A stretch of DNA of 64,000 nucleotides from Thermovorax subterraneus (GTDB taxonomy: Bacteria; Bacillota; Thermosediminibacteria; Thermosediminibacterales; Thermosediminibacteraceae), in NCBI GenBank assembly GCA_021608145.1, contig JAKIHM010000005.1, positions 62,001-126,000 on the forward strand. The letters run 5' to 3'. The notes below the pieces were generated by a model, which did no database searches, was not told the DNA's origin, and worked only from the letters and a program-made list of their open reading frames with translations. This document shows, piece by piece, positions 3,982 to 56,685 of the stretch. Each line of letters starts with the position of its first letter. Within the stretch, counting starts at the first letter, position 1. The position numbers and the translations under genes are program-made.

Positions 3982-4015
3982 CCCTCCCTGATTATGTTTT
4001 TCGCATCCCTGCGAA
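3982..4015 (-). promoter_or_regulatory. Two CsrA-type binding sites in the flagellin leader
   Basis: Site 1 is the hairpin TTCGCA-GGGA-TGCGAA at 4000-4015, with the GGA exposed in a tetraloop. The sequence CAGGGAUG around it fits the CsrA consensus core. Site 2 is CAGGGAGGG at 3982-3990, which is also the Shine-Dalgarno sequence of flagellin. A hairpin site plus an SD-overlapping site is the arrangement known for the Bacillus subtilis hag leader, where CsrA blocks translation and FliW relieves it. Confidence 0.7.
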
Positions 4016-4042
4016 TTTCGATTAAATTTTAAATTGATTATC

Positions 4043-4058
4043 AAAGCCGGCCGGCTTT
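4043..4058. repeat. 16-bp perfect palindrome in the flagellin 5' UTR
   Basis: AAAGCCGGCCGGCTTT is a perfect palindrome just after the predicted transcription start. As RNA it could form a 5'-end stabilising hairpin; as DNA it could be an operator. The sequence alone cannot distinguish these. Confidence 0.5.
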
Positions 4059-4069
4059 CTTCTTTCGCT

Positions 4070-4099
4070 TATTTTATCGAATGCATTTCATAGAACTTA
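4070..4099 (-). promoter_or_regulatory. Candidate sigma-28 (SigD)-type promoter of flagellin
   Basis: On the minus strand: TAAG (4099-4096), 16 bases, then CGATAA (4079-4074), resembling the TAAA / CCGATAT pattern of flagellar sigma factors. The 13-mer ATTCGATAAAATA over the -10 region is repeated exactly upstream of flgM at 18872-18884. Confidence 0.5.
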
Positions 4100-4199
4100 A
4101 TGCCGGATTTTAACCATAAATTACGAATTTACCCCTATTTTCTTGATTAATATAATTTTTCGCTTTAACATCTTTACTTTTTTCTTGTTATTGTCCTTT

Positions 4200-7196
4200 T
4201 TAAGTTAATCTTAAGCTGTTGACATATATTTGCATAGGTATTGCCATCTCATTATTGATTTCAACCGAATTCTTTAGACACCGCAAAGCATCTATACTTT
4301 TACCTTTGTTCAAATATTCAAAAGCATCTAAAATACAATTTAGGAAAAGAATCTCTTTTTCTTCCAAAAGTTCTTCCCTGTAAGAAGAAATTAAATACAT
4401 ACAGAGCTGTAAATAATAGTCAAGGAGTTTGACTATTTTTCCCTCAGATATGTTTTTTGAGATATACGGATTTGAGAGGATAAACTTTAAATATTTCTTG
4501 AATTCATTAATCTCAATATAATCTAAACCTGTAAAGAATTCATCAATAACAGCTTCTCTATTATTATTAAAAATAAAATCGTTAAAGTTTCGGATTTTTT
4601 TAAAGATATTATCATTTATCTTACATATTTCAAATAAATCAAGAAGTTCCTTGGTCATATTCTCCTTCATTTGCAGCATTATACTAAAAACGATATACTC
4701 AATATATTTGTAGTCTACATCGATCTTTTGCAATTCATCAGCAAATTGTTTAATTGAACCGAAATCATTACTTTTTACAACAGCCTCTAAAATCATAGGC
4801 AAAATCTCAGCTAGGCTATTAATATTGGCCTTGAAATTCACCTTTTTACAGAGAGTGCAAATTTTCTCATAATCCTTCATCTCATAATAACAATGTATCA
4901 AGATTTTTACTGCTTTATCCTTTTCATGCAAAGAATAAAAAACCATCGAATCATCGTTCGCAATTTCGCGGGTATAAAAATCTTCCAATATATCTAAATA
5001 TCTCTCCAAATACTTTACAGCATTTTTATAGTCACCTTTCTTATAATAAGCAAAACCGTAATACAACAGCAAATCAATATAATCGTCTTGTACCTTTAAA
5101 ACTTTTTCAGACAAATTTATAACATCATCATACAATTCATTTTTTAAGAATACCCTAACTGCATGTCCATACAAATTTAGTTCCCTTTTTTCAATTGATG
5201 ATTTTTTTTCTAAATTTTTCAAATAAATTTTTACATGCCTTAAAGCTTCCTTGTCATCTCCATACATGCTGTAGCTAACACTCAGTTGGAACCTATAATA
5301 AATATCATTTGGATTTTTGGCAAGTTCCTTCTTTAGCAAAGTAGCTGTCCGTTTAAACTTTCTTTCCCTTACTTCGTCATTATTCATTATATATCCGTAA
5401 TGCAGGATAAAAATATCTAAATGTTTTATCGGTTTCTTGTAAACTGGTTGATTGTGGACCTTACCAGTATAATAGAAAGTCCCATCATTTTTAAATATCA
5501 AAGCTTGTGTACAAATCCCAAATCTATCAAAAGATTCACTGGCAAAATTCTTTATCTTAAAGGTAAAAGCGTTATAATCTTTGTAATCCTGGCCGCTGAA
5601 AAATTCTATTAACTTTTCTGCTCCTCCTTCCTCCAATTCTTCGTCAGCATCAATTATGAAGATATATTCTCCCTGGGCTAACGATATGCTGTAATTTCTC
5701 GCTTCGGAAAAACTTCCCTGCCACGGGTGTAGATATACTTTATCAGTATATTCTTTTGCTATATTAATCGTATTATCTTTGGACCCTGTATCTACAATTA
5801 TAAGCTCAGCTAAACCACTTTGAACAAGAGGCTTCAGGCTCTCCAAGCACCTTCTCAGATATTTTTCTTCATCTCTTACTATCATGCAGATACTCAACTT
5901 GTATTTTTTAACACTATTCTCAAGTCTTAACCTCTCAATGTAATACAAAACTGCCTGCTCCATCGGAGGGTATATTTTTGCTGCGTTTTGTAGATTCTCT
6001 ATAGCTTGTTCGATTTTGTTGCTGTTTATATTGCCTATTACTTTGTCTATTTCAACGATAAATTTAGCTTCCTGGTTTAAGTATTTCGGCACAGATTTCA
6101 ACAGCTTATTGGTTACGTAAATGCCATAGTTGCAGTAATCCACAAACATCTGAATCAGCATCTGCTTCTTTTCTATATCATGAGATTTATCCGACATAGA
6201 AACAATATAAGTTTTTGCAAGTTCCATTAAAATGTCTACTCGAGGGTTGTCCCTAATAGATATCTCTTTTATCGCATCCACTGCAATCATGAATTTATAA
6301 AACGTCCTGTAAAAATCCTCGAAATTACTCAATAAATATGCCAAGTAAACCTTCAAAACCTCAAGATTTACAATCCTCGCAATCTTTATAAATTCATCAA
6401 TCAACTGGTTTTCCATGAGGTACTTTAAGATGTATGCCACGTAAAGATTTTCTATTTTAAAAATATCAGCGTAATGCTCTATTCCTTCTGTATCAACCCT
6501 CTCTAACAATCCCACTTTTAATGTTAGGTATTTTCGATAATCATCTTCTATATGAGCTAATTTCATAAGATTCCTATCCATCTCGACAACTTCTTCATAC
6601 AGTGAAAATTGCTTAATTTTTTCCGCAGATTCATAGAACTTCTTCTCCAGTAGATAATTTTTTTTGTTCTTTACTATTGTTAGGAAATCGCCTATCATTG
6701 AAATATCTCCAATATCAAAGAGCCACCAAAGGATATCTTCTATTTTGCCCAAATCAACATTGACGAGACTTTTATCCAACACGAAAACACCTTCTAAAAA
6801 TTTTTCTTCAGCACCTTCATCTTTGGTAAAAATCAAGGGAAGCTTTTTTACACATGAATCGCCGTCATTTAATACAAACTTGTAATTGCAGGAATAAATA
6901 CAAGGCTTACCACTTTCGATTTTGCGAAGTATTTTTTCAATAAGAATATCCTGATCTTCCTCCCAGATTAGAAACAAATCATTCAACGTTAATTGCGAAC
7001 AATATTCTTTCAATTGGTTGTATGCCCCAAAAAATTCATATTTTGGGACGCTAATATCTTCATTGATAGAAATGTAGGGATCTAAACTTTCATTATTAAT
7101 AACGATAACTTCAACATTTTTATCCAGCAGACTTCTAATGACATCTTCTTTGTTTTTTATTTTATCTGCCGACCATTTTAGGAATACGGTGAGCAC
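4200..7196 (-). CDS. Large TPR glycosyltransferase (GT2), probable flagellin glycosyltransferase
   Basis: 998 residues. A GT2 domain spans about residues 428-640: KLSICMIVRDEEKYLRRCLE, then ELIIVDTGSKDNT, the acidic motif IIDADEEL near 515, and FKNDGTFYYTGKVHNQPVY. The TPR-like helical segment that follows (about 640-760) contains YRFQLSVSYSMYGDDKEA and YYKKGDYKNAVKYLERYLD. The first 60 residues (LTVFLKWSADKIKNKEDVI, then VEVIVINNESLD) look like the start of a second, degenerate GT-A fold. No membrane segment, so it is probably cytoplasmic. It is the first gene upstream of flagellin and downstream of a sugar-nucleotide operon, so transfer of sugar to flagellin is the most likely role; this is inferred. 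Low-GC DNA compared with the flagellar genes. Confidence 0.85.
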   Translation of the reverse strand: MLTVFLKWSADKIKNKEDVIRSLLDKNVEVIVINNESLDPYISINEDISVPKYEFFGAYNQLKEYCSQLTLNDLFLIWEEDQDILIEKILRKIESGKPCIYSCNYKFVLNDGDSCVKKLPLIFTKDEGAEEKFLEGVFVLDKSLVNVDLGKIEDILWWLFDIGDISMIGDFLTIVKNKKNYLLEKKFYESAEKIKQFSLYEEVVEMDRNLMKLAHIEDDYRKYLTLKVGLLERVDTEGIEHYADIFKIENLYVAYILKYLMENQLIDEFIKIARIVNLEVLKVYLAYLLSNFEDFYRTFYKFMIAVDAIKEISIRDNPRVDILMELAKTYIVSMSDKSHDIEKKQMLIQMFVDYCNYGIYVTNKLLKSVPKYLNQEAKFIVEIDKVIGNINSNKIEQAIENLQNAAKIYPPMEQAVLYYIERLRLENSVKKYKLSICMIVRDEEKYLRRCLESLKPLVQSGLAELIIVDTGSKDNTINIAKEYTDKVYLHPWQGSFSEARNYSISLAQGEYIFIIDADEELEEGGAEKLIEFFSGQDYKDYNAFTFKIKNFASESFDRFGICTQALIFKNDGTFYYTGKVHNQPVYKKPIKHLDIFILHYGYIMNNDEVRERKFKRTATLLKKELAKNPNDIYYRFQLSVSYSMYGDDKEALRHVKIYLKNLEKKSSIEKRELNLYGHAVRVFLKNELYDDVINLSEKVLKVQDDYIDLLLYYGFAYYKKGDYKNAVKYLERYLDILEDFYTREIANDDSMVFYSLHEKDKAVKILIHCYYEMKDYEKICTLCKKVNFKANINSLAEILPMILEAVVKSNDFGSIKQFADELQKIDVDYKYIEYIVFSIMLQMKENMTKELLDLFEICKINDNIFKKIRNFNDFIFNNNREAVIDEFFTGLDYIEINEFKKYLKFILSNPYISKNISEGKIVKLLDYYLQLCMYLISSYREELLEEKEILFLNCILDAFEYLNKGKSIDALRCLKNSVEINNEMAIPMQIYVNSLRLT

Positions 7197-7309
7197 CTTT
7201 CCACCTCCGCTTGTTATATGGACTGATCTGCATATTTATAAAACTTGGTAAAAATTATTAGAAAATACTTTAACCAAGCTTTTGCTATAGACATTTGCCA
7301 CACTTTCCA

Positions 7310-7462
7310 ATATTGGTTCTATTGTAGAAAGGGGGATACCAATCTAGGTTTAGATAATGTTCTTGGAGATTTGTTCCGCTTCGAGACCCTTGTCTACGTT
7401 GCCGACTTTCTGGCATTCGGCCGAGAGATTTGCTCTTTGAACTCCTCACTATACCGTCTCAT
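7310..7462 (-). pseudogene. Transposase OrfA (IS3-type HTH) remnant
   Basis: The 400-base gap between the two glycosyltransferase genes contains, from ATG 7462, RRYSEEFKEQISRP and then, one frame over, ECQKVGNVDKGLEAEQISKN. This resembles the helix-turn-helix start of IS3-family OrfA proteins (YSxEFKxQIVxEC...GN...). Stop codons and a frameshift make it non-functional, and no inverted repeats or OrfB were found. The rest of 7197-7596 holds nothing recognisable. Confidence 0.5.
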
Positions 7463-7596
7463 TGACCGAATTCTCTAAGATTGTTTTAGGTCCTATGTAG
7501 AGATTTTCCAAACTGCTTAGGGAGCTAAATAATAGAAGGCAACTAGTTTTTCTTTCCTTAATATTTTGGAATATATTATGGGGAGATTTGTCAATT

Positions 7597-9729
7597 CTAT
7601 AAGTTCCCTATTAAAATTATATTATCTCTAAAAAGCGGGTACTTACTTAAGATATCGTCTAAAGATTTATTATCTGACAAATAGCTTTCTGCCATAATAA
7701 TATCTTCAATTTTAATTCCTGCCTGTACTGCAACTTTCATTAATGTATAAGGCGTAAACCAATAGCGGTGATCGCTATTTATGACTTCTTTGTTTTCTTT
7801 TACTGATACAAAATTTAAGTATTTCAATGCATTCGGAGCAGTAATAACGATTTTATTAGCTATTCTTTTAAAATTATCTGAAATATGCTTCAAAAAATAA
7901 ACAGGATTATCAACGTGTTCAATAACTTCTCCTAGTATAATATAATCCCATTTGTTATTTAAAATTGCCTCTGGTATTTCCTGGGTTATATCACAACAAT
8001 AGACATCTTGGATACCAATTACACTTTTAACATATTCAACAGCATCACGGTCAATATCTATACCAACACATACATCAGCAGAATCAACTAATATTTTATG
8101 AAGCCACGTATTATTAGAAATTTTCTTTTCAATCAGTTTTTTATGGTCAGCAAAACCTATATGTATTACTTTTTTCCCTTTCACTAAAAGACGTAAATAC
8201 TCCAACCTATAAATTAATGGCTCATCTTTATTGTAATTAAATGCAAATGCGTTTGAAAATCGATCCCCTTTTAGAAATGGGCTAATCTCTTCTATATAGT
8301 TTTTAAAATCTTGAATAAAGCTAATATTGTTGTTATTATCTAAAAATAAAGAATTAACTATCTTCTTTATCAAATTAATTTGACTTACCAAATCCCATTT
8401 TCTGTTAACAACATATTCTCTATATTCACTAGAATAATAATTCGAATCAGTTATTCTACTTACTGCCTCCTCTATTGTATTAAATAGCATCTCGTTTCTG
8501 TATAACTCCCTTGCCCCATAAAAATTATGAATTATCGGTTTTATTCCTCTCGCCATAGCCTCCATTATGTTATAGGGATGTCCCTCATGTATACTCGTCG
8601 ACAACAAATAATTTTTATCCTCCCACCACTCGTCCATGTCATCTACCCAACCGTAGAAAATAACATTGTTTTCAAGCCCCATTTCTTTTACCATGTATTT
8701 TAAATAAAGTTCCAATACTGGATCCTGAAAATCTCCCGCAATGTGTAATTTAAATTTTTGATTAATTTTTACAAGCGCATCTATAATCTGTAATGCAAGC
8801 ATAATATTTTTTCTTGTATGTAAATGCGCCACTAATGCAACATTAAATCCCGGTTTCCTTTCTTTAAATTCAAATTTATCAATTTTTACTCCGTTATATA
8901 CTATTTCTATTTTATTTTTAAACTCGCTATATTTCTCTTTATGATATATCTCTAACACATCTTTCATTGAACCGGCTACTAAAATTAACTTATCAACCAC
9001 ACTCCACTTTATTCTCTCTATAAAATCACTAAATGCTTCATATCGATGCAACCTCACGATAACCTTTTTCCCAACAATTCCCGGATAATTTGTCCCAATA
9101 ATCGCCACTTCATTCGCCCACTCGAACCAAACTATATCAGCCCAATCTATAGCTTCATATATTTCTTTATCGGTTTTTACTGCAAATTTGCGTACCCAAT
9201 AGTCATCGGATAATCCTTCGATTATATCGTTTATAAAATTATCCAAGCCAGCGGCACAAATAAAGGCAAGTTTTGGTTTTTTAGCAGCCGTCTGGACCTT
9301 CTCTTTTAACATTTGAAACTTAATTTTCAATTCCCCAAACAGGTTTTCTGGTACATTTTTCAACGCCAATTCCATATGTCTTAGAGCTTTTTCAAAATTT
9401 CCCTCAAAAACATAAAGGTCAGAAAGAATGTCATTTATCTCCCACGAATTTGAATCTAAATTGAAATATCTTTCTCCAAATTCCTTTACCTTGTTCCAAT
9501 TTTTTAATTGATAGTATATTATCGACAAATTAAAAAGAGCATCCGGATTATTGGGGTATTTTCTTAGCATTTCTCTCAAAATGCCGATGGCTTTATTTTT
9601 TTTGTTTAAATTGTAATAGGATAGTGCTAATAGCGAATAATCATTTTGTGTTACAGGCTTGTTATTTGAAAAGTAATTTATTATTTCGTCACACTTTCCT
9701 GAATCAAATAATTCCTGAAGCATATACAC
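7597..9729 (-). CDS. TPR - GT4 glycosyltransferase - methyltransferase fusion
   Basis: 710 residues in three parts. Residues 1-135 are TPR repeats (ALSYYNLNKKNKAIGILREM, NLSIIYYQLKNWNKVKEFGE). Residues about 150-460 form a GT4-type glycosyltransferase (GT-B fold) with IEIVYNGVKIDKF, VALVAHLHTRKNI and STSIHEGHPYNIMEAMARG near 390. Residues about 515-690 form a class I SAM methyltransferase: KKVIHIGFADHK, CVGIDIDRDAVEYVK, WDYIILGEVIEHVDNP and KIVITAPNA. It starts 22 bases after the wbpD-like acetyltransferase stop, so it closes that operon. The fusion suggests coupled addition and methylation of a sugar on flagellin; the acceptor is inferred from context only. Confidence 0.85.
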   Translation of the reverse strand: MYMLQELFDSGKCDEIINYFSNNKPVTQNDYSLLALSYYNLNKKNKAIGILREMLRKYPNNPDALFNLSIIYYQLKNWNKVKEFGERYFNLDSNSWEINDILSDLYVFEGNFEKALRHMELALKNVPENLFGELKIKFQMLKEKVQTAAKKPKLAFICAAGLDNFINDIIEGLSDDYWVRKFAVKTDKEIYEAIDWADIVWFEWANEVAIIGTNYPGIVGKKVIVRLHRYEAFSDFIERIKWSVVDKLILVAGSMKDVLEIYHKEKYSEFKNKIEIVYNGVKIDKFEFKERKPGFNVALVAHLHTRKNIMLALQIIDALVKINQKFKLHIAGDFQDPVLELYLKYMVKEMGLENNVIFYGWVDDMDEWWEDKNYLLSTSIHEGHPYNIMEAMARGIKPIIHNFYGARELYRNEMLFNTIEEAVSRITDSNYYSSEYREYVVNRKWDLVSQINLIKKIVNSLFLDNNNNISFIQDFKNYIEEISPFLKGDRFSNAFAFNYNKDEPLIYRLEYLRLLVKGKKVIHIGFADHKKLIEKKISNNTWLHKILVDSADVCVGIDIDRDAVEYVKSVIGIQDVYCCDITQEIPEAILNNKWDYIILGEVIEHVDNPVYFLKHISDNFKRIANKIVITAPNALKYLNFVSVKENKEVINSDHRYWFTPYTLMKVAVQAGIKIEDIIMAESYLSDNKSLDDILSKYPLFRDNIILIGNL

Positions 9730-44764: not shown

Positions 44765-45397
44765 TCACTTTGTTTTTATCTCATTAAGGTACATATTAAA
44801 AAGCTCAGCTGCTTCTTCTAATATTGAAGTGTCACGAATTAAAAGTTTTTTAACCTCTTCATTATAAAAACTTTTTATTTTCTCCCACCTGAAGTCCAAT
44901 ATTTCGACTTTAGAAGTTAAAATTATACTCTTCTCCAGCATCTTGCACCATTCATTTCTAAGGACTACAGCGGTGTCTACGACATCTCTAACCTTCAAGC
45001 TTTCTGGCCTATAGAAAAGCTTTTTTATAACTATCTCCCAAGGGGTTTCTACCTGAACCTTTCTGCCCAAGATTTCTTTTTCTACGTACCAATCTTCGGT
45101 CAAATGGGGAGCCAGTATAAAGTCTATCTCACCTTCATCCATTTTCAATTTTACGAAATTCGACATTTCGGTATAATCTTTAATTCCTTCTATATAAGAA
45201 TTCAGCCGCGGGGTCACCAATAGCAAGTGCTGCGCATCTGTCAAAAAGATATCTACATCAAAACTTTCCCTATGGTTATAATATAATGACAGCGCGCTTC
45301 CCCCTCCGAATGACCACTCGTTTTCAGCTATACCGGCATTTTCTAAAATACCAATTGCCTTCTTAAATAGGTTAATCCAGTTCTCAGGCATTTTCAA
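44765..45397 (-). CDS. Nucleotidyltransferase-fold protein, AbiEii/AbiGii-like (possible toxin)
   Basis: 210 residues. Nucleotidyltransferase core FGGGSALSLYYNHRESFDVD with GGGS and the D-x-D pair, then VKLKMDEGEIDFILAP giving a third acidic residue, and VETPWEIVIKKLFYRPESLK RDVVDTAV, as in AbiEii-type proteins. Such proteins are toxins of type IV toxin-antitoxin or phage-defence pairs, or tRNA-modifying MNT-like enzymes. It overlaps the small upstream gene by 14 bases, as partners often do. AT-rich DNA relative to neighbours hints at acquisition. Toxicity is inferred only. Confidence 0.75.
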   Translation of the reverse strand: MKMPENWINLFKKAIGILENAGIAENEWSFGGGSALSLYYNHRESFDVDIFLTDAQHLLLVTPRLNSYIEGIKDYTEMSNFVKLKMDEGEIDFILAPHLTEDWYVEKEILGRKVQVETPWEIVIKKLFYRPESLKVRDVVDTAVVLRNEWCKMLEKSIILTSKVEILDFRWEKIKSFYNEEVKKLLIRDTSILEEAAELFNMYLNEIKTK

Positions 45398-46632: not shown

Positions 46633-47931
46633 CTAGTATAACTTTCCTTCGTCAAGAGAATAATTCCTGAAAACCATTAAGCCCAACAGTATACATATAG
46701 CCGCTAGCAGGCATGACGCGTAAATACCCGAGGGTTTTTCGAAACTATAGCCCAGGTATTTGAAAAGCACTCCGGTGGTAAAAAACGATGAAAGACCTGT
46801 AACCGTTTTTACCAGCAACCCCTGAACTCCGAAGAACATGGCCTCCCTTCTGCGCCCGGTCATGGCCTCATCTATATCCGTTATGTCGGCTATAATGGCA
46901 TTGGGTATTATGAACACCGCAGCCAGCGGGAACCCGGCGAGGCCTACCACCAGAAAGCCGAACCATCTGGCTGCGAGGAAAAGATACGGTCTACCCACGA
47001 AAAACATGACAAATAGCAGTACCATAAACACGGTCATCGATGCATTGTATACCTTTTTCTTTCCGTATTTTTTTATCCACGCCAGCATAAATGGTGAAAT
47101 GAGTATGGCATTTATAAAAAGCAAGCCCTGCAGGAGAGCGGTTTCCGTTCCGCTAAGGCGCATGTTCACCGTGGCTATATAAGGCAGCGCTATTGTGACC
47201 ATGTTAATGGCAAACCAGTAGAAAAGAAACGATATCTCATAATACATGAATTCCCTGTTTTTCAAAGTCGAAATAAGACTTTCCTTCAGACTGACGCTGG
47301 CCCCATCCGTTTTCGGCATCTCCCGCTCTTTTACTCCAAACGGCATTATCAGGGTTATAAGCGACAGCGCGCCCAGTATTATCCCCATAGCTCTTACTCC
47401 GTACCGGGCTAGAAGTACAGGGCAGGCCACTCCCTGGAGCAAAAGCCCTATTGTATTGAACACCGACTGGTAAGTCGAAACGGCAGCCCGTTCACCAGAG
47501 TCTGTTGCGATCTCCGGCAGAAGTGCAAGGTAGGGCGCCACGTATATAGTGAAAAATATAAAGTAAAGGGAAAGCATAACGGCCAAATATATAAAGTTTG
47601 CAAAACTTTCGTAGGGTTTTGGGGGAAACCAAATAAGTATATAGCTCAGCACCAACGGAAAGGCCCCAAAAATCAGGAAGGGTTTCCTCCTGCCCAGCCT
47701 GCTCTTGAAGTTGTCGCTCCAGTAAGCCACCAGGGGATCCGATATCGCATCTACAACCCTGCCTATGATCATGGCTGCACCTACAAGGCTCACAGAGGCC
47801 AACGGCACGAGGTTATAGGGGTTGCGTTCCGGAGGAGCATAAAAGTACGCATACCAGGACACGAGGGATTGCATGAGGACACTTATGCCTAAGTAAGCCA
47901 CGGGATACATGAAGTATTCTTTTATCTTCAC
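46633..47931 (-). CDS. MFS transporter, GPH (MelB-like) sugar:cation symporter family
   Basis: 432 residues, 12 membrane helices. GPH features: GRVVDAISDPLVAYWSDNFK with RLGRRKPFLIFGAFPLV in loop 2-3, and NAIIADITDIDEAMTGRRRE in the second half. Such transporters take up glycosides or sugar acids with Na+ or H+. It is the last gene of a four-gene cluster with a glycosidase and two nitrilase-fold proteins, 13 bases after the first nitrilase stop, pointing to uptake of a substrate those enzymes process. Confidence 0.9.
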   Translation of the reverse strand: MKIKEYFMYPVAYLGISVLMQSLVSWYAYFYAPPERNPYNLVPLASVSLVGAAMIIGRVVDAISDPLVAYWSDNFKSRLGRRKPFLIFGAFPLVLSYILIWFPPKPYESFANFIYLAVMLSLYFIFFTIYVAPYLALLPEIATDSGERAAVSTYQSVFNTIGLLLQGVACPVLLARYGVRAMGIILGALSLITLIMPFGVKEREMPKTDGASVSLKESLISTLKNREFMYYEISFLFYWFAINMVTIALPYIATVNMRLSGTETALLQGLLFINAILISPFMLAWIKKYGKKKVYNASMTVFMVLLFVMFFVGRPYLFLAARWFGFLVVGLAGFPLAAVFIIPNAIIADITDIDEAMTGRRREAMFFGVQGLLVKTVTGLSSFFTTGVLFKYLGYSFEKPSGIYASCLLAAICILLGLMVFRNYSLDEGKLY

Positions 47932-47944
47932 GGCTATTCACCCC

Positions 47945-48955
47945 TCAATAGAGTCTTGACAGGTACTTCCTGTAAAGCTCTTCGTTTCTGTCCTTCAGCA
48001 GCTCATCTTCCTCCCGGTATTTTCTCAATGCCCCGATATCAATGGATGCCGTAACCACATCGTCCCCCTGATAATGTTTTGCTTCTTTCACCACACCGTC
48101 CCTGTTTTCGGTTAAATCCAGCGGGGCATATATTCCAGCTTTGCCGGTAAAATAAAACTTCGCCACCCTTCCCACCAGTGCGCTCTTTATGCCGTAAACC
48201 CGGCTCTCCTGGACTCTGGGCCATATGCCCCTGAGAGCCCTGTAAAAATCGTACTCCTCCATATTGGCAATGGGGATTATAACTATATCGGCCCCTTTCA
48301 TCCTTGCTATTTCGAAAGTTTCAAAATAAGTGGCATCCATGCAAACTGGAAAGGCTACCTTTGCAAATGGTAGTTTAAAGACATCCAATTCCTCTCCCGT
48401 TTTCAGCCCGAAAGATTCCTCCTCAGGGGTCGCGTGAAGCTTTTTCTGGCTGCCGATGAGCTTCCCATCAGGACCAAATAAATACGCCGTGTTGTAAAGC
48501 TCCCCGTTTTCAGGGGCGGTGATGCTTCCCCCCATCACGTACATCTCGTAGAGGCGGGCGAGGGAGCTGAAGGTCAAGAAATAAATGCCTTTTACGTACG
48601 GGCCGAGCAGCATCAATGCGGCCCTCATTTTTTCACCATCGTCATCTTTCCGGCCATCCCCGGAGAATTTTTTCTCTATCCCGGGCAGTAGGCCGTAAAG
48701 AGGAAGGTGAATATTTTCCGGGAAAGCTATGAGCCTAGCCCCCTCCTCCGCTGCCCTCTCCATGAGATGCCTCATATGCTCAAAATACTCTATGGTCGAT
48801 TTATGGAGCCTGAATTCCACCTGGACTGCTGCAACCTTCAAACCAGGCTCCCTATTATACTTTTTAACCTTCAATCCGGATATGTGCCGTTTAAGGGGCT
48901 TCGGGTTAAACTTATATGAGAGAAACATCTTTGCCGCAAAATCCAGCAATCCCAT
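47945..48955 (-). CDS. Carbon-nitrogen hydrolase (nitrilase superfamily), catalytically intact
   Basis: ATG 48955 is chosen: it overlaps the upstream stop as TGATG and follows GTGGGGATACTG. About 336 residues. The catalytic triad is visible: Glu in LIAFPENIHLPLYG, Lys in IGSQKKLHATPEEE and Cys in VAFPVCMDATYFETFEIARM. Nitrilase-fold enzymes cleave amide or nitrile C-N bonds or transfer acyl groups. A basic N-terminal stretch of about 35 residues precedes the core. Coupled to a second nitrilase-like gene that seems to have lost two catalytic residues; they may form a heteromer. Confidence 0.85.
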   Translation of the reverse strand: MGLLDFAAKMFLSYKFNPKPLKRHISGLKVKKYNREPGLKVAAVQVEFRLHKSTIEYFEHMRHLMERAAEEGARLIAFPENIHLPLYGLLPGIEKKFSGDGRKDDDGEKMRAALMLLGPYVKGIYFLTFSSLARLYEMYVMGGSITAPENGELYNTAYLFGPDGKLIGSQKKLHATPEEESFGLKTGEELDVFKLPFAKVAFPVCMDATYFETFEIARMKGADIVIIPIANMEEYDFYRALRGIWPRVQESRVYGIKSALVGRVAKFYFTGKAGIYAPLDLTENRDGVVKEAKHYQGDDVVTASIDIGALRKYREEDELLKDRNEELYRKYLSRLY

Positions 48956-49707
48956 CAGTATCCCCACTCTTTTTTGTAAAGTTTTCTGTTCAAATACTTA
49001 TACAGCGGGTAAACGGATTTAATTTCATTTCTCCTGTCAAAATCAAGCACTGCCGCAAGAACCCCTTCTTCATCCTCCCCCATTTCACACAAAATACCGT
49101 TGGAACCTTCCCATATAGGATTGTGAATTATGCTCCGCCCAGCGTATATTTTATCGCGGATCCTGCCGTTTACGGCGCACTCCACGGCAAAAAACTGGTT
49201 CTGCTGGACCTGCTGCCATATGCCGGACAACTGAAGCCAGCGGTTGTAACCCCCTTCAACCGCGTAGAGCCCTACCAAGATGTCTGCCCCCTGTAGGCCA
49301 AGAATCCTGCCGCACTGCGGATGAAAGCAGTCGTTGCCTACGAGTATGCCTACGTTGCCCACGGCCGTCGGGCAAATCTCAAGTTCATCTCCCCTTTTTA
49401 GGCCGTCCCTTTCATCCTGCCCCGAAAGGTGGGTCTGGCACTGGGTATGAAGTATTCTGCCCCTTTGCATGATAACCGCCTTGTGGTATCCGTCCTCGAT
49501 GAAACTCCCGGGCACCAGAACGAAATCTTTTTGTTTTGAAAGCTCCAGGTGAAACGTAAGATACTCGGCAGTGGATGAAAATAACAGCCCCGATAGGGGA
49601 GGAAGGACCAGGATATCCGCTTTTATATCCCGGAGGTATTTATTAATATCTTCAATGTACTTCTCCTTATTTTCAAACCTCAGCTGGAGGGCACACGCCT
49701 TTACCAT
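48955..49707 (-). CDS. Nitrilase-fold protein lacking catalytic Glu and Lys
   Basis: ATG 49707 chosen (GAAGGAGAAAGGCAAA before it; an upstream frame to 49773 has no ribosome site); 250 residues. The fold is clear from KACALQLRFENKEKYIEDI, NVGILVGNDCFHPQCGRILG (Cys retained) and QQNQFFAVECAVNGRI. At the Glu position the sequence is ILVLPPLSGLLF, and where the Lys should stand it is HTQCQTHLSG. So two of three catalytic residues seem missing. It overlaps the glycosidase gene by 35 bases. Possibly a non-catalytic partner of the next nitrilase. Confidence 0.75.
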   Translation of the reverse strand: MVKACALQLRFENKEKYIEDINKYLRDIKADILVLPPLSGLLFSSTAEYLTFHLELSKQKDFVLVPGSFIEDGYHKAVIMQRGRILHTQCQTHLSGQDERDGLKRGDELEICPTAVGNVGILVGNDCFHPQCGRILGLQGADILVGLYAVEGGYNRWLQLSGIWQQVQQNQFFAVECAVNGRIRDKIYAGRSIIHNPIWEGSNGILCEMGEDEEGVLAAVLDFDRRNEIKSVYPLYKYLNRKLYKKEWGY

Positions 49708-51505
49708 TTTGCCTTTCTCCTTCCACCACGGCTTTGTAAAGCGCAAAGGCAAGATACCCCGCGCCGGTGGCAAACCCGGCCCCCGTTCTCACTTCTCCCG
49801 TATTTTTATCAAAGCTCTCGCAGAGGATTCCGTTGTCAAAGGGCGCATTTTTTACTATAAAAAGCGCTTCTTCCCTTCTCAGTGGATTCAGCAGGCTCCC
49901 GCAAAGCCCCAGGCCTGAAGGCGTATTGGGGTGGTGATCGCAGGCGAGTTCTTTAAACCGGGCGGTTTCATCGTAATATTCGTACCGGGGAGAGTAATAA
50001 TACGACACCGTATTTTTAAAAACGTCATCCAAAGGCAGGCCATAAAAGGCCAGGGTGCCAAGATTTCCCGGCGGGTCGTTGTACAGCCTGAAATTCCCCT
50101 CCCGGTCTATCGACCAGGCATAAAGCCTTTTTCCGTCCACTTCTACGATAAATTTTTTTATGCTCTCTTTAAGCCTCTCTGCTCTTTTCTCCAGTACATC
50201 GGTAGGCCTTCCGAGTTTTCTGTAGACACCTATCAGGTTCTCAAAAGCCTTCAAAACCAGGACGTTGTCGATGAGCACAAAATCGTGGTCGGCCGGGTCG
50301 TCCGACGGAAGAAGGAAAGTCTTGTATAGCCCCATTTCATGGTCGTATTCCTTCTCTATCCTTTCTACAATGTAATCGAACGCTTCCAGCACTTCTTTAT
50401 CGTAAAAAGCAAGGTCGAAGTCCAGGTCTATAAAATAGCTGCAGGCCTCATCCAGTTCAAAGCCCGGGTATAGAACTGTACCGTCGATGTAATGGGCGTG
50501 ATCCCCGGCGTTCCTGTAATGGGTCAAAAGGAGCTCACGGTAGAGCCTTTCGTAAAACTTCCTGTCGCAAAGTTTGATAGCCCGGAGGGACCATAAAAAA
50601 CAGTCCCTTTCCCAGAAAGCCCCTGATACATAATACCTGTTGCTCCTGGAGGTCATGGCCACCAGCCTGTCGGAGTAAAAGTCCACCGCTGTGCTGAAAA
50701 AATAATTGAAAAAGAGATTTTCATTTAGGATTCTCTCTATATCTTTATCCGTTGAAGTTATTATTCTTTCCCTCAGAAATTCAGCAAATTCCTTATATAT
50801 CCTCTCCAGGCCCTTTCTCCTCAGGTGAATCAGCGTGGTGCTTGCCCCGTCGGGGTCAGCATTGAGGACAAAGTACAGGGCATTTTTTGTACCTGCTTCC
50901 ATTTTTAACGACGCGATCAGTTCCAGGCCCTCATTAATATCCGCCTTTTTTTCCTCAAAAACGCAGGTGAAATCCTTGTCACCGCCCATTGCCGTTGCCA
51001 GGGAAAAATTATTTCCTTCAAAAGAGATACACGGGTTCTTCAGCCATTTGTCAGTGAAAAGCCTTTTTACACCATGGCACTTGTGGGTATTAAAGCGCAG
51101 GAAATTGACCCTGTCGGGCCTGAAATCAAACTTCACTTCAAGGTCTATGTCGCTTTCAAGTTCATACACGAAACCCTTTTCCCGCAGGTCGGCGTATATC
51201 CTGGTCCTGACGACAAAGTCTTTAAAAATGAATTCAAAGGCCGGAATGTAGTACAGTTCTTTTCTCCATATTACTCTTTCCGGTTTTAATCGCCCGCCGT
51301 TTTTATCGTAAAAATGGGGTTTTAACAGGTATCTGCTTCCCCTTATCTCTATAAGCCCCTTGTTCTGCATCGAAGTAACATTAACGCTTTTTATCGCTCC
51401 TTCCCTGTCGATTTCCGGAAGGGCAATATATCCGTTGGCCATGTACAACGCCACTTCGTTTTCCTTTATTTCCTCAGGCCTTGTGATGAGTTTCAAATAT
51501 ATCAC
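49673..51505 (-). CDS. Large glycosidase-like protein, probable (alpha/alpha)6 barrel
   Basis: 610 residues, no signal peptide, so intracellular. An N-terminal beta-sandwich-like part (1-230) precedes a helical barrel. The barrel has SGAFWERDCFLWSLRAIKLC, HYIDGTVLYPGFELDEACSY, SYYYSPRYEYYDETARF and CDHHPNTPSGLGLCGSLLNP. The aromatic-W-x-RD motif and acidic residues recall GH15/GH63/GH125-type glycosidases, but the family cannot be fixed by eye. Clusters with two nitrilase-fold genes and a GPH sugar symporter. Overlaps the next gene. Confidence 0.7.
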   Translation of the reverse strand: MIYLKLITRPEEIKENEVALYMANGYIALPEIDREGAIKSVNVTSMQNKGLIEIRGSRYLLKPHFYDKNGGRLKPERVIWRKELYYIPAFEFIFKDFVVRTRIYADLREKGFVYELESDIDLEVKFDFRPDRVNFLRFNTHKCHGVKRLFTDKWLKNPCISFEGNNFSLATAMGGDKDFTCVFEEKKADINEGLELIASLKMEAGTKNALYFVLNADPDGASTTLIHLRRKGLERIYKEFAEFLRERIITSTDKDIERILNENLFFNYFFSTAVDFYSDRLVAMTSRSNRYYVSGAFWERDCFLWSLRAIKLCDRKFYERLYRELLLTHYRNAGDHAHYIDGTVLYPGFELDEACSYFIDLDFDLAFYDKEVLEAFDYIVERIEKEYDHEMGLYKTFLLPSDDPADHDFVLIDNVLVLKAFENLIGVYRKLGRPTDVLEKRAERLKESIKKFIVEVDGKRLYAWSIDREGNFRLYNDPPGNLGTLAFYGLPLDDVFKNTVSYYYSPRYEYYDETARFKELACDHHPNTPSGLGLCGSLLNPLRREEALFIVKNAPFDNGILCESFDKNTGEVRTGAGFATGAGYLAFALYKAVVEGERQNGKGVCPPAEV

Positions 51506-51594
51506 TCCCCGCCAAAAACCAATATTCCATCTTGATATTTTTTCTACGGCTTTTGTCCTTTTCCTGCTGCCGTTTAAAGGTTTGTTAAAAAAGC

Positions 51595-51621
51595 AAAGCC
51601 CGAGGCATATCCCCGGGCTTT
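51595..51621 (-). terminator. Terminator after the nitroreductase gene
   Basis: AAAGCCCGGGG-ATATG-CCTCGGGCTTT followed by GCTTTTTT on the minus strand. Confidence 0.9.
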
Positions 51622-51626
51622 ACAAC

Positions 51627-55583: not shown

Positions 55584-55612
55584 AATATATCCTACTTTTT
55601 GGCCTTTGTCAA
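55584..55612 (-). promoter_or_regulatory. Promoter of the ileS T-box transcript
   Basis: TTGACA (55612-55607), 17 bases, TATATT (55589-55584) on the minus strand. The -35 box overlaps the stop codon region of bpsA. Confidence 0.82.
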
Positions 55613-56685
55613 CGTCCTTTGTTCGGCTTGTAAATCAAGGCCTCTTCGTCCACGTAAAGTTCGCAGGGCATGGGTTTGTTTTCGATTTTCTCAAAGCCGC
55701 TCACCGTTTCTATTCGGTACATAGAAGACCTGTACCAATTGAGCTTAGGTTTTACTTGAACGAAGGAGTAGTCATCCCTGATGCTTCCCAATAGATAGTC
55801 CCAGTTGACGTAATGGTTAAAATTGTCTATTATATCCGTAATTGCTACTTTAAACTTGGAAAGCAGCATCTGCTGGAACTGACTCCACTTTTTAAGCGAC
55901 GCCTCGGTTCGTGTGAGCCCAAAATATCCAGCACATCCTTCTCCCGAAAGGCTCGAAAGTCCTCGAGTCATGCAAACCTCCAACGCCTCTATCGTCTCAG
56001 GCGGGTCGGTGTTGAACGTATCGAAATACCCCACGTACTGTTCCGGAAGTTTGTCCCTGAAGTCGTACTTCAGCGCCTTTACAGGCACGCTGAGCATTGA
56101 TGCCTTTTCGTTGATATAATTTACAAGCCTATCGTCTATCTCCAGGACGACTATTTCTTTAGGCATTCCTGTAAGGCCCGCTGCTAAACTCAGAAGGTCA
56201 TCATCGCCAAGCACTAAAAGTTTCTTGCCTTCAAGGTCTCCGCGCTCGGTCATAAGAGCCACTCTTGCCATGACACTGGCAGTAGTGATGTATCCCTGGT
56301 CATAGTCTATGATGGCTTTGGGTCGGTCTACCGTAAGCTCATCGAATTTTTGCATCCATTCATTTATTTTTTCCAATCCGATTCCGCGACCTTCGCAGGC
56401 TGGGCACGTATAATCCCTTCTCGGGGATATGGAATTTTCCTTTAAAAATTCCTGCCCCTGCGGGGTAAGAGTAATCTCTCCTTCCTGGTCTACGCTGACA
56501 AGCCCTTTTTCCTTTAGAGCGCCAATTATTTCCGCTACAACGCTGAACGGTTTTTGAGTGGCACACACTATTTCCCAAAAATGAGAAGAACTTGCAAGAC
56601 CAGAAATTATTTTTTCCACATCTCTTGCAGTAGTATCGACCTTCGTCTTTTCGGTCACTACCTCTGAAAGTTGCCTGACGTCCAT
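55609..56685 (-). CDS. bpsA: N4-bis(aminopropyl)spermidine synthase (BpsA, DUF43 family)
   Basis: 358 residues. N-terminal winged-helix-like part (1-95), then CPACEGRGIGLEK and a class I methyltransferase-like core: IDYDQGYITTASVMARVALM, LLVLGDDDLLSLAAGLTG, IVVLEIDDRLVNYINEKA and TFNTDPPETIEALEVCM. The GDDD and DPPE motifs belong to the aminopropyltransferase that makes branched quaternary polyamines in thermophiles such as Thermococcus. It uses decarboxylated SAM to add two aminopropyl groups to spermidine, products that protect nucleic acids at high temperature. No other polyamine gene is adjacent. Confidence 0.92.
   Translation of the reverse strand: MDVRQLSEVVTEKTKVDTTARDVEKIISGLASSSHFWEIVCATQKPFSVVAEIIGALKEKGLVSVDQEGEITLTPQGQEFLKENSISPRRDYTCPACEGRGIGLEKINEWMQKFDELTVDRPKAIIDYDQGYITTASVMARVALMTERGDLEGKKLLVLGDDDLLSLAAGLTGMPKEIVVLEIDDRLVNYINEKASMLSVPVKALKYDFRDKLPEQYVGYFDTFNTDPPETIEALEVCMTRGLSSLSGEGCAGYFGLTRTEASLKKWSQFQQMLLSKFKVAITDIIDNFNHYVNWDYLLGSIRDDYSFVQVKPKLNWYRSSMYRIETVSGFEKIENKPMPCELYVDEEALIYKPNKGR

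Follow-up and report, generated by a model that had tools for sequence, protein, structure and literature searches.

Sorghum offers the nearest precedent for a glycoside-linked enzyme built from two nitrilase paralogues; its NIT4A and NIT4B subunits both retain the catalytic cysteine. The NIT4A/NIT4B2 complex takes part in turning over dhurrin, a nitrile glycoside (PMC5154151). Among glycoside hydrolase family 125 (GH125) enzymes, residue roles have been assigned in CpGH125: Asp220 is the acid, Glu393 the base, Arg64-Asp65 belong to subsite -1 and Asn302 contacts mannose O2 (PMC9883506). In the cation symporter MelB, the sugar ligands are Lys18, Asp19, Asp124 and Trp128 (PMC8329300). Here we describe a bacterial locus in which proteins comparable with these are encoded side by side. 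It lies in a stretch of 64,000 nucleotides from Thermovorax subterraneus (contig JAKIHM010000005.1, positions 62,001 to 126,000; hereafter the window), where four minus-strand genes form one tight operon encoding a GH125-like glycosidase, an inactivated nitrilase (NitB), an intact nitrilase (NitA) and a symporter. NitA and NitB very probably work together as an active/inactive heteromer, and their functional link to the glycosidase is well supported.

An intact nitrilase and its inactivated paralogue

NitA carries the complete Glu-Lys-Cys triad (Glu80, Lys172 and Cys205 on alignment to solved nitrilases), as an earlier note on this DNA had read it. The protein matches PF00795 (CN_hydrolase) with 76.8 bits against a cut-off of 23.2 and, judged by sequence, has the features expected of a catalytically active nitrilase. 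Homologues were surveyed in 399 genomes of the phylum to which the window belongs (Bacillota). Among those of NitA, the Glu and Lys are present in 64/64 and the Cys in 63/64; the sole exception, at locus L140, belongs to a pair in which both partners look dead. An N-terminal extension of about 40 residues is common to the NitA homologues. The closest solved relatives are the Pyrococcus nitrilase and mouse Nit2, and the best solved matches are of the amidase type.

NitB has lost the whole triad, since alignments to solved nitrilases and to 34 homologues place Pro37, Gln91 and Gly124 at the positions of the Glu, Lys and Cys. The earlier note had recognized the proline and the glutamine correctly but had credited this protein with its nucleophile: the cysteine in question is Cys127, three residues downstream of the nucleophile position (context GILV-G-N-D). 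Activity through such a shifted cysteine is ruled out. An equivalent of Cys127 occurs in just 7/65 NitB homologues, and because the Lys is gone in all 65, replaced each time by Gln, none has a full triad. The Glu is lost in 58/63 and the Cys in 59/65, while the second acidic residue is retained in 60/65. The nitrilase α-β-β-α fold is nevertheless predicted to be kept (Pfam, 44.4 bits; structural model with a predicted local distance difference test score, pLDDT, of 94.9; Foldseek E-value of 1e-16 to 1j31).

The ratio of nonsynonymous to synonymous substitution rates for NitB is 0.12-0.23, and the protein is thus under purifying selection; together with its conservation throughout the phylum, this rules out a gene in decay. 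A tree that also included other nitrilases encoded by these genomes united NitA and NitB in one clade (100/99), within which NitB is a single clade (94/94) and sister to NitA. This topology argues for one ancient duplication and one ancient loss of the NitB residues.

The two genes are neighbours on the same strand in 60/60 loci carrying both. Moreover, in five loci (L138, L148, L149, L154 and L151) they form a single open reading frame (ORF) of 732-833 codons; the genomes concerned are four of one genus (G073, G111, G146 and G397) and G092. Fusions were counted on resolved domains, since the NitA and NitB profiles cross-match. Constant adjacency and natural fusion both point to a physical complex, in keeping with the active/inactive heteromer of the earlier note. 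The pair also occurs without the glycosidase (see below), which makes it the core of the module.

A second, diverged NitB-NitA-like pair is present in one genome family (L155:8275-10187, L157:7413-9330 and L158:8443-10366). Its NitA-like partner is also losing catalytic residues, and the genes around the pair, among them those for PRPP synthetase and a BadF-type ATPase, are conserved.

A GH125-like glycosidase linked to the pair

The sequence of the glycosidase suggests a distant relative of GH125, expected to be α-cleaving, inverting and exo-acting. The window protein scores 22.2 bits against the Pfam GH125 model (curated cut-off 23.4), whereas all 43 homologues match it with E-values of 0.001 or lower, the best being 2e-26. 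Solved GH125 members were matched through the family profile only (E-value 5e-24), the single-sequence search having matched none. Asp402, Glu563 and Arg300-Asp301 correspond to CpGH125 Asp220, Glu393 and Arg64-Asp65 and are invariant in 43/43 sequences; Asp402 is the predicted acid and Glu563 the predicted base. The structural model (pLDDT 94.8) suggests an N-terminal β-sandwich followed by an (α/α)6 barrel. Foldseek placed GH15, GH94, GH116, GH65 and GH63 structures at the top by E-value, but by target-normalised TM-score GH125 structures were covered best (0.66-0.68). A Pro-Pro-Gly motif occupies the position of CpGH125 Asn302, which leaves room for a sugar other than mannose. With this Asn missing and a domain added, the protein was not accepted as a plain GH125 α-mannosidase; it may represent a new glycoside hydrolase family or, within GH125, a major subfamily. 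No export signal is evident in the protein and its partners are of cytosolic type, which suggests an intracellular location.

NitA is encoded in 71/399 genomes (about 18%) and the glycosidase in 60/399. Both are found in 52, where about 11 would be expected (Fisher p 2e-40, uncorrected for phylogeny). Proximity tells the same story, in support of the functional tie that the earlier note had supposed for the window: 32/42 glycosidases shorter than 700 residues lie within 1.7 kb of the NitA-NitB pair, in several gene orders, both co-directional and divergent. Near the longer relatives (700-1000 residues) the pair is mostly not found. At L061 (G275), NitA continues without a stop into the glycosidase, a fusion known from a single assembly that needs checking. 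A second glycosidase-nitrilase link exists at L056:8923-12014 and L089:80-3418, where a member of the glycosidase family adjoins a lone nitrilase of another kind, whose start resembles a signal peptide and whose triad is intact; genes for an ABC sugar transporter lie close by at L056.

A PIG-L type de-N-acetylase gene lies beside the glycosidase or the set in twelve loci spanning several clades and gene orders (L050, L066, L068, L069, L073, L078, L082, L083, L084, L088, L144 and L162; at L144 it adjoins a contig-end glycosidase fragment). This association gives a weak hint of an N-acetylated amino sugar. Other recurrent neighbours (RuvABC, AspRS, IMPDH, PRPP synthetase and BadF-type ATPase) were attributed to clade synteny and excluded from the module. 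A plasmid search gave no match. A more distant copy of the glycosidase, at L049:9161-11981, is broken into two ORFs. It adjoins Amidohydro_2 and sugar-type ABC permease genes and lies 1.5 kb away from a NitB-NitA-transporter set that is intact.

Organization of the operon and its transporter

Sequence and ORF calls bear out the tight spacing described in the earlier note, namely two overlaps (Table 1) and a 13-bp interval between NitA and the transporter gene. The operon begins at the glycosidase, because a strong terminator-like hairpin closes the upstream nitroreductase gene. For the glycosidase, the TTG start is a better fit to the GGGGAG Shine-Dalgarno sequence than the GTG. An OGG-type DNA glycosylase gene follows 23 bp downstream of the operon, and transcription may run through into it. 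On a Fervidicola ferrireducens contig the same four genes occur in the same order, with a glycosidase 96% identical to that of the window.

Table 1. Features of the operon and its upstream boundary, in window coordinates
Feature	Coordinates	Strand	Remarks
GH125-like glycosidase, 610 aa	49673..51505	-	start GTG 51505 or TTG 51496
NitB, pseudo-nitrilase, 250 aa	48955..49707	-	ATG at 49707; nitrilase fold predicted to be kept
NitA, intact nitrilase-superfamily amidase, 336 aa	47945..48955	-	Glu80, Lys172, Glu179, Cys205
MFS_2/GPH-type cation symporter, 432 aa	46633..47931	-	Asp61, Asp65, Lys375 kept
Glycosidase 3' end / NitB start overlap, 35 bp	49673..49707	-	
NitB stop / NitA start overlap, TGATG	48953..48957	-	
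Intrinsic-terminator-like hairpin	51593..51623	-	13 pairs, 8 GC, T-run; 3' of upstream nitroreductase gene

The transporter matches PF13347 (MFS_2) with 191.5 bits but stays below the cut-off of TIGR00792 (NCBIfam gph; 138 against 231 bits). It resembles MelB and MFSD2A in its family profile and its cation-site residues: Asp61, Asp65 and Lys375 (MelB Asp55, Asp59 and Lys377) are kept in 16/17 homologues. It differs from MelB in the four sugar-ligand positions, which have become Ile, Ser/Ala, Val and Leu, respectively, in nearly all 17. Its best solved match is the lysolipid carrier MFSD2A, ahead of MelB. The earlier note had presented the protein as a glycoside importer; with all MelB-type sugar ligands replaced, a plain importer of this kind was not accepted, although import of a glycoside is possible.

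Elsewhere in the window, an AbiEii-type nucleotidyltransferase of a type IV toxin family (Pfam, 36.7 bits) is encoded at 44765-45397, and a branched-chain polyamine synthase (BpsA) gene, consistent with a thermophile, at 55609-56685. The G+C content drops to 32% at 4001-8000, compared with about 43-52% over most of the window.

A possible role in the use of sugar-amide compounds

Taken together, the fusions, the conserved gene set and the second link between glycosidase and nitrilase suggest that the amidase and the glycosidase act on one compound. It seems possible, with the chances a little short of even, that an amidase of two paralogous nitrilase-fold subunits and an inverting exo-α-glycosidase process one small compound in which a sugar is combined with an amide-type (C-N) bond. 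NitA would provide catalysis by the Glu-Lys-Cys thioester mechanism. NitB, itself non-catalytic, would serve as its dedicated partner, completing the oligomer and probably shaping or gating the pocket of NitA. With Asp402 and Glu563, the glycosidase would take off a terminal α-linked sugar, while the symporter would carry the compound or one of its products over the membrane. The substrate that we infer is a sugar-amide or an N-acyl-aminosugar glycoside, and the order of the steps and the direction of transport are likewise inferred. Mannosylglyceramide, a sugar-amide compatible solute, is only an idea in this respect; a literature search for it yielded no gene link.

Several observations weigh against this role. 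The genes occur apart in some relatives, which partly loosens the association proposed in the earlier note: nineteen genomes carry NitA, nearly all with NitB, without a detectable glycosidase, although in at least one of them (G268) it escaped detection because the contig ends inside the gene. In most of these genomes the pair lies amid unrelated housekeeping genes. In G019, a member of the same family as the window genome, internal deletions have reduced the glycosidase and transporter genes to remnants, whereas NitA and NitB remain intact (L048:4712-7253). Finally, the transporter is without known sugar ligands, and no PIG-L gene is present in the window genome.

The persistence of the pair without a glycosidase, including in G019, means that the amidase may serve an independent function. 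NitA-NitB could be a general amidase for repair or salvage, like the Nit1/Nit2 omega-amidases, that some lineages coupled to sugar genes for the sake of its product or of nitrogen. The relationship of NitA to the Pyrococcus nitrilase and mouse Nit2 fits such an enzyme, and so does its housekeeping context in genomes without the glycosidase. However, 52/60 glycosidase genomes encode NitA, one NitA is apparently fused to the glycosidase (L061), and a different nitrilase adjoins the same glycosidase family at L056 and L089; we regard a general amidase as a rather unlikely explanation.

The likeness of the transporter to MFSD2A and its lack of MelB sugar ligands raise another prospect, that of a biosynthetic or remodelling module. 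NitA-NitB would then act on a glycolipid-like or N-acyl-aminosugar compound, transferring or trimming an acyl group, and the MFS_2 protein would move that compound. The conserved N-terminal extension of NitA could bind the membrane, and a PIG-L deacetylase is nearby in some clades. Nevertheless, the recurrent neighbour clusters examined included neither a glycosyltransferase nor an acyl-carrier family, and the acid/base pair of the glycosidase is of the hydrolase-type inverting kind, which leaves such a module improbable. Breakdown of a nitrile glycoside, cyanogenic or other, an example offered in the earlier note, would recall the sorghum heteromer in pairing nitrilase-fold proteins with a glycoside, but it is very unlikely indeed, since known cyanogenic glycosides are β-glucosides whereas a GH125-like enzyme is expected to act on α linkages, and among solved proteins NitA best matches members of the amidase type.

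The joint action of amidase and glycosidase on a sugar compound could be taken further. The operon may represent an undescribed Bacillota module that combines an obligate, anciently fixed non-catalytic nitrilase subunit with a new glycoside hydrolase family for unrecognised sugar-amide or N-acyl-aminosugar compounds, a proposal that we advance with distinct reserve. As in the earlier note, where no pathway with this set was known, our literature searches found none described, their coverage of subscription papers being small. The NitA-NitB pair is widespread and conserved in the sampled phylum but has no function described in the literature searched. Unusually for a nitrilase pseudoenzyme, NitB has long been retained beside its active twin, and the natural fusions make the heteromer directly testable. 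The module also suggests the existence of a natural compound that combines a sugar with an amide-type bond and could be searched for in carrier organisms.

Relation to described systems

We know of no amidase partner for the mannosyl-/glucosylglycerate hydrolases (GH63). These enzymes nevertheless resemble the window glycosidase as intracellular α-glycosidases with an (α/α)6 barrel that act on a small glycoside, although they belong to a different family (PMC6608630). With the GH125 exo-α-1,6-mannosidases (CpGH125, CPE0426) the window protein shares the barrel fold, the catalytic acid and base and the Arg-Asp of subsite -1; it differs in an additional N-terminal β-sandwich of about 215 residues and in the replaced mannose-O2 asparagine. 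NitA has the triad, the second Glu and the fold of the Pyrococcus abyssi/horikoshii nitrilase and Nit2, with which NitB has only the fold in common. The absence of catalytic residues from NitB, its status as a dedicated paralogous partner and the N-terminal extension of NitA set the pair apart from these enzymes. Sorghum NIT4A/NIT4B likewise joins two paralogous nitrilase subunits to a glycoside pathway (PMC5154151), but it is a plant system of unrelated origin with nitrile substrates.

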